Positions 15,682-20,686 of a stretch of 51,055 nt of DNA are shown here, piece by piece. The notes below the pieces were generated by a model. It saw only the letters and a list, made by a program, of their open reading frames with translations. It made no database searches and had not been told where the DNA came from. Within the stretch, counting starts at the first letter, position 1, and every line of letters starts with the position of its first letter. The stretch comes from Desulfurococcaceae archaeon (GTDB lineage Archaea > Thermoproteota > Thermoprotei_A > Sulfolobales > Desulfurococcaceae): the NCBI GenBank assembly GCA_020833245.1, contig JAJHQQ010000002.1:1-51055 (forward strand), given 5' to 3'. Made by a program: the position numbers and the translations under genes.

Positions 15682-15855
15682 AGTATCCTACTCGAAAGTA
15701 GACAATACACCTGTGAATAGTATAAAAAGCTAGTGGTAATTAACTGTGACTCAACAATCTCCACTCCAAGGAGCTACTCTCACTCCGAGAGGAGTTTAGC
15801 TTTATATAGGTCTTATAAGCTTTGAGGAGACATTGAGTTGAGGGGTGCTTTAGGT

Positions 15856-16092
15856 ATGGGAAAAGTTAGAACTAAGCTGGTTAAGAGAGTGGCGAGAAAT
15901 CTGCTTGAAAAGTACCCTGATCTATTTACGAGGGACTTTCAACACAACAAACTAGTAGTCTCGAAACTCGTAGCCGTTACTTCTAAAAAGCTGAGAAACC
16001 AGATCGCTGGCTACATAACACACTTAGTGTCGATTACACAGAAGGCGAGAAAGCCCACTACGGAAGAAGCAGTAGAGGAGGTTAAGAGCTAA
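15856..16092 (+). CDS. rps17e: 30S ribosomal protein S17e (internal ATG preferred over 15838)
   Basis: MGKVRTKLVKRVARNLLEKYPDLFTRDFQHNK is the canonical S17e N-terminus. Confidence 0.93.
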   Translation: MGKVRTKLVKRVARNLLEKYPDLFTRDFQHNKLVVSKLVAVTSKKLRNQIAGYITHLVSITQKARKPTTEEAVEEVKS

Positions 16093-16094
16093 AA

Positions 16095-16583
16095 TTGTTT
16101 GAGTGGTTTTTCAAGGAAGAATACTTAGAATTAGGCATTAAGTGGCGTGATGAGCCGATCAAAGTAAAGGCGTGTGTATTCCTGTGTGAAAAGCTAAGCG
16201 GGGAGTTAAAAAACGAGTTACTCGCTCGAGGAATTAATGGTTCATCCCCACTCGCAATTATACCTGTAACTAGCGTCACTAGTCCTCACCAAGTAGTTCA
16301 AGGAGTAGTACACTACGTAATTCACGGTGCGAGGCAACACAGAATTAGAAATAAGGGGTTACTACTGTCCGCTCTAATTCTCGGCACCGCTCAAATAGAC
16401 GACCTCGTTGAAATTCTCGAAAAGCACTTTAAGTCAAGTCAGCACTACTACCTGGTAGGAGTAGATAGTAAGCCAGTTAACCTAGATAAGTGCATTACTC
16501 TCAAACGAGAAATTCTCCTAGAGAAACCGGCAACAATGAGCTCAATGGTAAAAAACGTCCTGTTAGTTATTTCTCTAACCTAG
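16095..16583 (+). CDS. KEOPS subunit Cgi121-like protein
   Basis: Size and pattern HQVVQGVVHYVIHGARQHRIRNKGLLLSALILGTAQIDDLVEILEK typical of Cgi121. Confidence 0.65.
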   Translation: MFEWFFKEEYLELGIKWRDEPIKVKACVFLCEKLSGELKNELLARGINGSSPLAIIPVTSVTSPHQVVQGVVHYVIHGARQHRIRNKGLLLSALILGTAQIDDLVEILEKHFKSSQHYYLVGVDSKPVNLDKCITLKREILLEKPATMSSMVKNVLLVISLT

Positions 16584-16589
16584 GACTCC

Positions 16590-16715
16590 TCACCACTCTT
16601 CTTCCCACTCTTCCTCCTCCCACTCCTCTTCCTCCCACTCTTCTTCCCACTCCTCCTCAAGTAGCCATTTCATATCTAAGTCCCCTACTCTAACTAATCC
16701 TCCAAAGGAATGCAT
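16590..16715 (-). CDS. Small ORF, 41 aa, Glu/Trp-repeat tail: MHSFGGLVRVGDLDMKWLLEEEWEEEWEEEEWEEEEWEEEW*
   Basis: Read directly on the minus strand; absent from ORF track (<60 aa); A/T-rich TATA-like stretch just upstream; lies between two features and is not overlapped by a credible gene. Confidence 0.7.
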   Translation of the reverse strand: MHSFGGLVRVGDLDMKWLLEEEWEEEWEEEEWEEEEWEEEW

Positions 16716-16775: not shown

Positions 16776-16875
16776 AGCCGCCGGCGGGATTTGAACCCGC
16801 GACCACCGGCTTTCTCGACCCGGTTTCTCTAGGCCCATACGAGGCCGGCGCTCTACCAGGCTGAGCTACGGCGGC
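16776..16875 (-). tRNA. tRNA-Thr (CGT) with ~26-nt intron after position 37
   Basis: Spliced form GCCGCCG...CCGGC CTCGTAA GCCGG...CGGCGGC folds as a cloverleaf; intron about 16812-16837. Confidence 0.88.
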
Positions 16876-16891
16876 TTCGACGTCTATATAT

Positions 16892-17626
16892 CTAGTATGG
16901 CTTTTTATGAGTTTCTTCGAACGCCTTTATAGCGTTAATTGCCATTTCTCTAATAACGCTGTAGGGTTCTTTCGCCTTAACTATAGCCGATGCTACTAGG
17001 ATGCCCACTGTTCCTAACTTTATAGCTACGTATACGTCTTCGCCAGTACTAATCCCAGCCCCCGTGAGGACTTTAACACGTTGATTTACTCTAGTTATGA
17101 GTGAGACGCTTCTCGTTATAACCTCCGGCTTAGCCTTACTCACACTAATACCTGTACCTATGAGCTCAGGGGGCTCAACAGCTATCATGTCTGGCTCTAA
17201 GACAGCCACAGAGGCTCCTATTTCAGGCTCATCAGCACAGACCAGTACTTCGAGTCCTAGTGTACGAGCCTTTCTGATTAAGTAGAAGATCTCGCTTAGT
17301 TTAAGCTTGTGCTCGCTGTGATTTAAAATAACCCCGTTAACTCCGAGATCTTTGAGGCCTTCTAGGGGAATATAGCCCGTTACAGCGCCGGGCTCAAAGG
17401 GATCAGCGTGCTGAGCAAAAACCTTGACCTCTCTACCCTCAACTTCTCGAAGAACTCTGTAGAGCTCAGTGAACGGGGGTGCTAAAATGACCTCGATGTC
17501 CCTGAGCTCTTCTTTAACCTTAATGGCAGCCCGGGTAATACTCAGAGCGTAGGCGCCAAAGCTGTGAGGATAATATGCTTTAAAGTTAATAGCTAATATG
17601 GGTTTAAGAGCCTCCAGAAAAAACAC
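16892..17626 (-). CDS. tpiA: Triosephosphate isomerase (archaeal type)
   Basis: LAINFKAY, FAQHADPFEPGAVTGYIPLEGLKDLGVNGVILNHSEHKL, VEPPELIGTG, LTGAGISTGEDV. Confidence 0.95.
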   Translation of the reverse strand: MFFLEALKPILAINFKAYYPHSFGAYALSITRAAIKVKEELRDIEVILAPPFTELYRVLREVEGREVKVFAQHADPFEPGAVTGYIPLEGLKDLGVNGVILNHSEHKLKLSEIFYLIRKARTLGLEVLVCADEPEIGASVAVLEPDMIAVEPPELIGTGISVSKAKPEVITRSVSLITRVNQRVKVLTGAGISTGEDVYVAIKLGTVGILVASAIVKAKEPYSVIREMAINAIKAFEETHKKPY

Positions 17627-17667: not shown

Positions 17668-18780
17668 CTACTTTCGAGCTTCTTGCTTCACGAATCTCTC
17701 CTTTAGCCTCTCTAACACGTCGGGTAGCGTCGTGTACTCCATTTCCTCTGGTCCAAGTCTGTGCGGCATGAAGGGGCCGTGTCTTCTAATGTAATCAGCT
17801 ATGATCTGAGCTTGCCTTCTCGCCTCATCAAACGCCACGTCGTCAAACAGGTCTACGGGACCTATGAGTTTTCCTCGACTAATATTCCAACCGAGAGCTA
17901 TTAGTCTGGGCGGTCCGTCGAATCTAGTGACTTTAGCGTATCTCATTGGAACAGGCATTAGTGGGCCGTAGTGACTACCCCTCATCCAGCCAGCTACTAA
18001 GTGTGGAAAGGCAAAAGCCTCGAGAACTTCACCTACTGCTGGTAGACCGTGCTGAGCTCTCACTATGGCGACCGGGTCGTCTTTACCAACATATCTACCG
18101 GCAATTAAGCTTAGTCTCTCAACGCTCACTACGGCTGCTAGTAAGTTATCGCTCTTCCTGTACACTCTCCTGACAATATACCTCCCAGTTGTCCCGATGA
18201 GCGCGAGTATGTCGTACATTTCCTCCGGAGCCTTCAATAGGACACTCGACGACTCTACTACATCGTAGACCTCGAATACGAATCCACTGTGCATTTTCGG
18301 GTCGATTACGAGGCCCGCTGTGTTAAATGGATCTGCGAAGACCCTGAATAGCGGTAAATTAAACGCGCCAGGCTCTGTTTTATCAGCGTGAAATGTTATC
18401 ACAGGCTCTGATGTCCTCTCCTCCATTTCGAGCTCTGCAACGCCCGGTCCTAGTCCTCTCACATTACCGGAAAAAGCCTCGGAGAGTAGGTCTTGTCCAG
18501 CAGCGTAGAGCTTAAGTTCACGTGCTACTTTAGCCGCTGCCTGAAATGCCTCCCAGGCTAATCCGTGTATATCGGGGTGATCTGGGCCCTTAGTGTGAGT
18601 CATTATTAGCTGTAAGTCGTCACCAACATGAGTCACGTAGAAGTCTATTATAATCCCCTTCTGCTTAGCCTCGGCGAGAATTTTAGTAGCCGCCGCGAGC
18701 TGATCTGGGTGTACAACGTGGTGCCCCGCTATACTACCCACATCTGCCTTTATAACTGAGAGCGTTACCCTCTCAGCCAT
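17668..18780 (-). CDS. fbp: Fructose-1,6-bisphosphate aldolase/phosphatase (archaeal bifunctional)
   Basis: TLSVIKADVGSIAGHHVVHPD, GPDHPDIHGLAWEAF, FADPFNTAGLVIDPKMHSGFVFEV. Confidence 0.95.
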   Translation of the reverse strand: MAERVTLSVIKADVGSIAGHHVVHPDQLAAATKILAEAKQKGIIIDFYVTHVGDDLQLIMTHTKGPDHPDIHGLAWEAFQAAAKVARELKLYAAGQDLLSEAFSGNVRGLGPGVAELEMEERTSEPVITFHADKTEPGAFNLPLFRVFADPFNTAGLVIDPKMHSGFVFEVYDVVESSSVLLKAPEEMYDILALIGTTGRYIVRRVYRKSDNLLAAVVSVERLSLIAGRYVGKDDPVAIVRAQHGLPAVGEVLEAFAFPHLVAGWMRGSHYGPLMPVPMRYAKVTRFDGPPRLIALGWNISRGKLIGPVDLFDDVAFDEARRQAQIIADYIRRHGPFMPHRLGPEEMEYTTLPDVLERLKERFVKQEARK

Positions 18781-18877: not shown

Positions 18878-20686
18878 CTAGTCTACAGTGTAGTAAAGTC
18901 CCCTTTGCCTCTGTTCTCTGTCTAAAACAGACCCCGGTTTATTAATACGCGGCCTACCAGACTCAGGGTCTCTGCGAACAGTCACGTCGAGACTTTTAAG
19001 TAGCAGGTTAAACCCCTCTCGTGGATCAAGCGGCTGAGACGCTCTTCCCTCAACTGCGGGCTCTCCCCAGAAAACCATTATCTTATCGCCGACAAAAGCC
19101 TGTAGCATTAAATCGTGCTCGACAACTATAGCTGTTTTACGCCTTTCCTCGACAATTCTCCTAATAACTCTAGCTACCGTGATTCTCTCCTCGACATCTA
19201 AGTATGCTGATGGCTCATCTAAAATGTATACATCTGCCTCTTGAGCAAGTGTTACTGCTACAGCTACTTTCTGCAGTTCACCCCCACTGAGATCACTTAT
19301 TTTCCTATCCAGCATTCTATTAATTCTCATTCTCTTCACTAGCTCGACATAGAGCCACGAAGAGGGGTCTACAGCGAGTTGAGAGGCCTTCTTTAAATTA
19401 CCTAGAACAGTCTCTTCGCTCATTATAGCTGGTGAGACCTCTTGAGGTTTAATCGCGACTTTCTCGGGTTTAATTAAAACATCTCCAGACGAGGGATTTA
19501 GCTCACCGCTGAGTAGTTTAATAAAAGTGGTTTTGCCAATACCATTAGGGCCGAGGATCCCTATAACTTCACCGCTATAAGCTCTACCAGCTGGGACTAT
19601 TAGCCGGAATTTCGAGGATGGATAAGTGTACCCCATGTTACTCCACTCTAGAACAGGGTATTCTTGCTTGGCAGTACTCTCCTCTCTAGTAGAGATCTTG
19701 AATTTCACCTCCTCTTCACGAATAAGCATATTTTCAGCCGGTAAGTAACCCTTAAGATAGTAGTTTATGCCAGCTCTTGTAGAGTAGGGCTTCGAGGACA
19801 CTCCGTATACGCCGGGTTCACCGTACATTACTACAACGTAATCTGATATGTAGTCCAGGATCATTAGATCGTGTTCAACAACAACCACGTAATTTTCAGC
19901 AGGTTTAGCAAACTCTGTAATAACCCTGGCTACTCTGAGCCTCTCTCGTATATCAAGATAGCTACAGGGCTCATCAAAGAAGTATGCATTAGTGTTCTTC
20001 GATAACACAGCAGCTACTAGGAGCTTCTGTAGCTCGCCACCGCTTAGTTCACTAATGGACCTATCTAGGATTCTCTCCATGCCCAGCGCCTTTACGAGAT
20101 CACTGTAAACCCCCCTCTCGTCTGCTCTCCTAAGCAGGTCTCTTACTGTTCCCTTTAAGACTCTGCGCGCAGGCTCAATGTACTGTGGCTTCACGGCTGC
20201 TTTAATCTCGTTACTCGCCAGCTTAGAGAGGTATGTTTGAAGCTCTGTTCCCCTAAATGTCCTTATAACCTCGTCCCACTCAGGAGGGTTATTGTACCTC
20301 CCGAGATTAGGCTTGATTTGACCAGATAGTATCTTGATACTGGTAGATTTCCCGGATCCGTTTCGGCCTATAACCCCCAGCACACTGCCTATTTTAGGTG
20401 TTATTAAATTGTAGAGTTTAAACGTGTTTTCCCCGTATCTATGTACTAGGACTTTCTCTAGCTCGTCTGGCAAGTTGACTATTGATATTGCATTAAATGG
20501 GCACTTCTTAACGCAAATTCCACACCCTACACAGACATCTTCAAATATAACTGCTCTACTCCTGTCCTCAGCGAGGTCTACAGCTTTCTTCTTCTTACTC
20601 TTGTTAATTGGGCAGAGCCTTATGCACTCCAAGTTGCACTTACTTGGCTTACAGTAATCCCTGTCTACAACAGCTATTCTAACCAT
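18878..20686 (-). CDS. ABCE1/Rli1 ribosome recycling ATPase
   Basis: N-terminal Fe-S motifs (CRLCPINK..., CVGCGICVKKCPFNAI), two ABC domains with LSGGELQK. Confidence 0.97.
   Translation of the reverse strand: MVRIAVVDRDYCKPSKCNLECIRLCPINKSKKKKAVDLAEDRSRAVIFEDVCVGCGICVKKCPFNAISIVNLPDELEKVLVHRYGENTFKLYNLITPKIGSVLGVIGRNGSGKSTSIKILSGQIKPNLGRYNNPPEWDEVIRTFRGTELQTYLSKLASNEIKAAVKPQYIEPARRVLKGTVRDLLRRADERGVYSDLVKALGMERILDRSISELSGGELQKLLVAAVLSKNTNAYFFDEPCSYLDIRERLRVARVITEFAKPAENYVVVVEHDLMILDYISDYVVVMYGEPGVYGVSSKPYSTRAGINYYLKGYLPAENMLIREEEVKFKISTREESTAKQEYPVLEWSNMGYTYPSSKFRLIVPAGRAYSGEVIGILGPNGIGKTTFIKLLSGELNPSSGDVLIKPEKVAIKPQEVSPAIMSEETVLGNLKKASQLAVDPSSWLYVELVKRMRINRMLDRKISDLSGGELQKVAVAVTLAQEADVYILDEPSAYLDVEERITVARVIRRIVEERRKTAIVVEHDLMLQAFVGDKIMVFWGEPAVEGRASQPLDPREGFNLLLKSLDVTVRRDPESGRPRINKPGSVLDREQRQRGLYYTVD

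Follow-up and report, generated by a model that had tools for sequence, protein, structure and literature searches.

The window analysed here, a stretch of 51,055 nucleotides from a Desulfurococcaceae archaeon, is contig C6 of an assembly of 862,650 bases in 78 contigs that is 78% complete. At the locus under study, the forward-strand genes for ribosomal protein S17e and a Cgi121-like protein are followed by a series of reverse-strand genes, in the order EW, tRNA, triosephosphate isomerase (TPI), an FBP aldolase/phosphatase-type protein, and ABCE1, the iron-sulfur protein that recycles ribosomes (Table 1). EW is our name for a microprotein that consists almost wholly of glutamate and tryptophan, with W as its C-terminal residue. 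The gene between TPI and ABCE1 was named by sequence recognition, and is presumably of the FBP aldolase/phosphatase type. The name 'Cgi121-like' is based on synteny and weak similarity, since the window protein has no match in Pfam and the profile of its family none in the PDB; matches to PF08617 are present in some order-level relatives and absent from the window's family, and a search of the genome-contig collection with the protein as query found no related loci. The tRNA was detected by Rfam; ARAGORN overlooked it in a run over the whole window and, on the locus, gave it as Ser. From its own sequence, with a CGT anticodon and a short variable arm, it reads better as tRNA-Thr(CGT), which is also the only tRNA called by ARAGORN in the congener locus L010; tRNA-Thr is the name that the preliminary description had used.

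Table 1. Features of the EW locus in the window.
Feature	Position	Strand	Remarks
Ribosomal protein S17e gene	15838..16092	+	PF00833, E=2.9e-21
Cgi121-like (KEOPS subunit-like) gene	16095..16583	+	convergent with the EW gene
EW microprotein CDS	16590..16673	-	27 aa, MKWLLEEEWEEEWEEEEWEEEEWEEEW, stop TGA; start, stop, frame and repeat kept in 8/8 genomes of the genus
In-frame extension upstream of the EW CDS	16674..16715	-	overlaps the TATA box; protein sequence not kept in relatives
Shine-Dalgarno-like GGGGA	16681..16685	-	7 nt before the ATG; GGGGA just upstream of the start in 8/8 congeners
TATA-like box TTTATAAA	16715..16722	-	TTTATAAA/G at similar distance in most congeners
Intron-containing tRNA, read as tRNA-Thr(CGT)	16776..16875	-	Rfam RF00005, 62 bits
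Triosephosphate isomerase (TPI) gene	16892..17626	-	PF00121, E=1.5e-41
FBP aldolase/phosphatase-type gene (presumed)	17668..18780	-	ORF between TPI and ABCE1; neighbour kept in many loci
ABCE1 (Rli1), ribosome-recycling Fe-S ABC ATPase	18878..20686	-	twin ferredoxin motif, two ABC cassettes; same strand as EW and 2.2 kb upstream of it

The EW reading frame

An open reading frame of 41 codons lies at 16590-16715 on the reverse strand, with exactly the sequence and coordinates of the preliminary description, which had read it from the first ATG and offered an internal ATG as the alternative. It is the alternative that holds: a TATA box overlaps the first ATG, so the product is the 27-residue peptide of Table 1, with translation almost certainly starting at the internal ATG at 16673. 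The gene is found at the same place in all eight genomes of the genus, and all congener starts have the form [M/V/L]-K-x-x-L-EEEW (with ATG, GTG, or TTG as the start codon), after a conserved GGGGA Shine-Dalgarno sequence; the segment from 16674 to 16715 thus more likely represents 5' UTR and promoter than an N-terminus. EW has a promoter and a ribosome-binding site to itself and is a gene in its own right.

The repeat was compared by codon position over its 22 codons in six congeners of equal length, leaving out a spacing variant (G002) and a near-duplicate (G006). None of the 44 first and second positions varies, as against 16 of the 22 third positions, and the 125 differences counted between pairs are synonymous without exception; selection thus acts on the protein and not on the DNA tract, since a polypurine tract kept as DNA would vary at all three positions. 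In the congeners whose EW repeat is invariant in protein, the Cgi121-like protein is 32-51% identical to the window's copy. The open reading frame is therefore, very securely, a genuine coding gene under strong protein-level selection. The preliminary description had proposed an unlisted microprotein gene rather than a microsatellite, which is borne out by variation at third codon positions only, and it had staked this proposal on the conservation of start, stop, and frame in close relatives, where all three were found conserved. That the tract makes no protein, being either polypurine DNA of low complexity or an element at the 3' end of the Cgi121 transcript, has next to no probability left: TRF does report a tandem array of 12-30 bp, but the repeat has no variable first or second codon position, its length changes preserve the frame, and three different stop codons are used, usually right after the final Trp codon. 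With substitutions so strongly biased by codon position (0, 0, and 16 variable at positions 1, 2, and 3), the non-coding tract was rejected.

A family of acidic-aromatic microproteins

In 40 genomes of the window's family, the pattern W-E3..5-W-E3..5-W matches at one site per genome, beside the Cgi121-like gene, and the reversed control matches nowhere; its occurrence at this locus is far beyond chance. The pattern W-E3..6-W-E3 matches in 107 of 214 genomes of the order and in 120 of 398 genomes sampled over the phylum, where the reversed control gave almost none. The stricter EEEWWEEEE, scanned over 84,980 species of bacteria and archaea with one genome per species, returned 76 stretches, all of them archaeal, from Thermoproteota and one record titled Njordarchaeota whose gene order is the same. 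Across Thermoproteota, some 180 distinct relatives were gathered. A record titled Candidatus Njordarchaeota (L200) carries S17e, EW, TFS, and ABCE1 in the crenarchaeal order, which could be due to mis-binning or be real. A contig from a viral collection (IMGVR_UViG_3300002966_000068, L246, about 3.8 kb) encodes MEEEEEWEEEDWEEEWEEEEEE, and is possibly a copy in an archaeal virus or a mis-called contig.

The most conserved feature of the family is the C-terminus, an acidic residue followed by a terminal Trp with its free carboxylate (-EW). Among the 183 distinct acidic-aromatic ORFs in the fetched loci, 148 end in -EEW, with TAA, TAG, and TGA all in use as stop codons; the last residue is Trp in 151 and Phe in eight (W or F in 159 of 183), and Glu in 20. 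The endings include EEW, EEF, DEW, and DEF, so that the position before the last is occupied by a residue of the set [DES], while position -2 is Glu or Asp in nearly all of the 183 and not one of [LIM]. Internally, the aromatic residues may be W or F, in varying number and at varying distances, mostly 1 to 9 residues from one to the next. The acidic rod with an aromatic stripe that the preliminary description had envisaged is not borne out by this variation: on a helical wheel of 100 degrees, the aromatics of 167 members cluster no more than positions taken at random (with a mean resultant length of 0.37 in either case). The homology of the family rests on shared composition, C-terminus, and gene neighborhood, as the alignment of two-letter sequences cannot prove it. 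The window ORF is taken as a 27-residue member of a phylum-wide archaeal family of probably disordered, acidic-aromatic microproteins.

The ABCE1-linked members have no match in Pfam or NCBIfam, a PDB search with one member returned none, and no paper on such a protein was found in the open-access literature, subscription journals being outside the coverage of the search. The gene, conserved across an archaeal phylum, thus appears to be previously unnoticed, apparently overlooked because it has fewer than 30 codons and a low-complexity look.

Genomic linkage to ABCE1 and possible roles

ABCE1 was matched in 241 of 250 genomes of the phylum, and clustering of gene neighbors places it in most EW loci. 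To avoid selection on EW, ABCE1 was also located first across the phylum and the kilobase upstream of it was then taken for 80 genomes; a microORF of the EW type is found there on the same strand in 35 of the 80 loci and on the opposite strand in none. EW occurs near ABCE1 in 23 family-level lineages, while the other neighbors have been reshuffled, and it does so in several arrangements: directly before ABCE1 and separated from it by about 40-130 nt (e.g. families f3, f11, f14, f20, f28), before TFS-ABCE1 (f16, f40, f42, f43, f48, f58), divergent from TFS-ABCE1 and thus on the other strand (much of f1, the family of the window), and downstream of ABCE1 (L150, L154, and, at 2.2 kb and on the same strand, the window). 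No EW gene is found in the kilobase upstream of ABCE1 in several ABCE1-bearing lineages (e.g. f15, f22, f35), and in some lineages EW proteins occur away from ABCE1 (f23, f33, g73). In genus g73 of family f11 (L130, L131, L132), three species have the gene in three different neighborhoods, as though it had moved more than once. The EW-like proteins of family f23 (L223-L229) mostly combine a basic N-terminus (MSRRKTPPK...) with an internal EDWGE motif like the C-terminus of LysW; three genomes of this family were searched for PF01883 and gave no match. Families f5 and f6 (L069-L074) encode longer E/W/F-rich ORFs beside NfeD-like and RNase Z-like or MiaB-like and methyltransferase-like genes instead of ABCE1, which are taken as paralogues or relocated members.

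The association of EW with ABCE1 is secure by gene linkage. Like the conservation of the terminal -EW-COOH, it is absent from the preliminary description because other genomes are needed to see it. Since sequence and company are kept while position and strand change, a protein partner is to be expected rather than a leader acting in cis, and the varied arrangements around ABCE1 suggest that EW acts in trans; we consider such a link to ABCE1 fairly likely. Conservation across the phylum and the frequent place beside ABCE1 together suggest that EW is probably an unrecognised helper of this protein.

By analogy with yeast, we infer that EW may be a docking peptide and use its terminal Trp as Lto1 does. 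The C-terminal Trp of Lto1 binds the CIA targeting complex and is needed specifically for Fe-S insertion into Rli1/ABCE1 in yeast (PMC4523923); the CIA signal reads [LIM]-[DES]-[WF]-COOH (PMC10623007), and in a preprint of 2026 the terminal aromatic residue is modeled in a cavity of Cia2 with arginines holding its carboxylate, the proposed site being one where hydrophobic and acidic residues are read in alternation (PMC13082141). In the mechanism judged most likely, EW would be an adaptor delivering apo-ABCE1 to the machinery for Fe-S insertion (a DUF59 carrier of the Cia2/MIP18 type): with its indoles kept exposed and multivalent by the Glu run, it would bind a pocket on the carrier or on ABCE1 through the terminal Trp and the free carboxylate of that residue, and would do for archaeal ABCE1 what Lto1 does for yeast Rli1. 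The adaptor is a well-motivated hypothesis and not a result; the statement as a whole, that a phylum-wide EW family acts in trans on ABCE1 as a docking peptide and most likely as its Fe-S adaptor, is put forward tentatively, as a possibility that falls short of even. The EW terminus fits the CIA signal at the terminal position and at -1, but not at -2, where it has Glu instead of [LIM]. Several observations count against an adaptor: 20 of the 183 members end in Glu, the ABCE1-bearing lineages f15, f22, and f35 are among those without an ABCE1-linked EW, and EW repeats contain many internal Trp residues, whereas an internal copy of the CIA motif is non-functional and the motif is absent from the archaeal homologues (PMC10623007).

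The distribution of the presumptive carrier is compatible with an adaptor but does not discriminate, as Cia2-type PF01883 proteins are found in 32 of 35 genomes with EW upstream of ABCE1 and are also common in those without (36 of 44). A PF01883 protein is present in 19 of 19 near-complete f1 genomes; no match was found in the window's own assembly, which is 78% complete. It also counts against an adaptor that two near-complete genomes with EW (G230, G355) have no PF01883 match and that Cia1 is not known from archaea. A search of three genomes for a general [DE][DE]W C-terminal client tag, with 25 matches examined, gave no sign of one, EW being the only short acidic-Trp protein among them; the other matches are nearly all frame noise, and one is the end of a metallo-hydrolase-like ORF of 202 codons. 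Where EW is absent, ABCE1 does not carry the motif at its own C-terminus. The more specific proposal, that archaea have a dedicated Fe-S maturation adaptor for ABCE1, reduced to a peptide of two letters, and that a Cia2-like carrier recognises its terminal Trp-carboxylate, is rather doubtful; if true, targeting by a C-terminal tryptophan predates eukaryotes or arose independently in archaea for the same client.

The genomic link to ABCE1 also fits a trans-acting regulator of ribosome recycling: EW would imitate the acidic, hydrophobic tail at the C-terminus of the ribosomal stalk protein aP1, or bind ABCE1 or the 30S subunit at a basic face, and so tune the access of ABCE1 to the ribosome. Ribosomal stalk C-termini are acidic with terminal hydrophobic residues and bind translation factors, and the clustering of EW with the genes for S17e, TFS, and Cgi121 suggests a context of translation and transcription; the stalk tail consensus is, however, unlike the E/W repeats and the binding is putative. 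We regard such a regulator as rather unlikely. Somewhat less probable still is a role unconnected with ABCE1, as a nucleic-acid mimic or as the partner of some basic protein, for which the neighborhood would be inherited synteny: an acidic, low-complexity peptide with 17 Glu in 27 residues would suit this role, as would the members encoded away from ABCE1, but not a linkage that has lasted in 23 family-level lineages through the reshuffling of other neighbors. A leader peptide acting in cis, whose acidic run would destabilise the translating ribosome, sense recycling capacity, and set ABCE1 expression, is improbable. Acidic nascent chains cause ribosome destabilisation (PMC9718836), and in many families the ORF does lie by position in the ABCE1 5' leader, directly upstream with the short gap noted above; this is not so in f1, including the window, where EW, found on the opposite strand or at a distance of 2.2 kb, has a TATA box and a Shine-Dalgarno sequence to itself and still keeps its sequence, nor in L150 and L154, where it is downstream. 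In several families, moreover, TFS lies between the two genes, and a leader would have no need of a conserved terminal Trp.

EW is a phylum-wide archaeal gene adjoining that of one of the most conserved translation proteins. It offers a directly testable candidate for the way in which archaeal ABCE1 is regulated or comes by its iron-sulfur clusters, and a natural example of an acidic-aromatic peptide whose sequence is constrained almost absolutely.

Comparison with known systems

EW resembles four known systems in part. Leader peptides of the MgtL type, which cause intrinsic ribosome destabilisation, are likewise very short acidic ORFs, in many cases directly before a gene that may be regulated, but EW is kept when it is not upstream of ABCE1, and has a strongly conserved terminal Trp and its own promoter and Shine-Dalgarno sequence. 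The C-terminal tail of the ribosomal stalk (aP1/P1-P2) is also an acidic and hydrophobic peptide in a translation context; the two have no common sequence consensus, and EW is a separate gene and tryptophan-based. The amino-group carrier proteins LysW and ArgW are, like EW, small and acidic, with a C-terminal tail rich in E/D-W, but ABCE1-linked EW is without their zinc ribbon (the window protein has no cysteine), and where their C-terminal Glu carries the substrate, EW ends in Trp (151 of 183). In family f33 (L243, L244), a LysW-like zinc ribbon is fused to an EW-type tail, away from ABCE1 (NCBIfam LysW_Arch, E=2e-9, below the cut-off). From the system of Lto1 (ORAOV1), in the Yae1-Lto1 adaptor, and the CIA targeting (TCR) tripeptide, EW differs in having no deca-GX3 domain (there is no glycine in the window protein), no Yae1, Glu for Leu, Ile, or Met at -2, and many internal Trp residues, archaea not being known to use the signal; with this system it shares a dedication to ABCE1, in the case of EW by gene linkage only, and an acidic residue followed by Trp at a free C-terminus.
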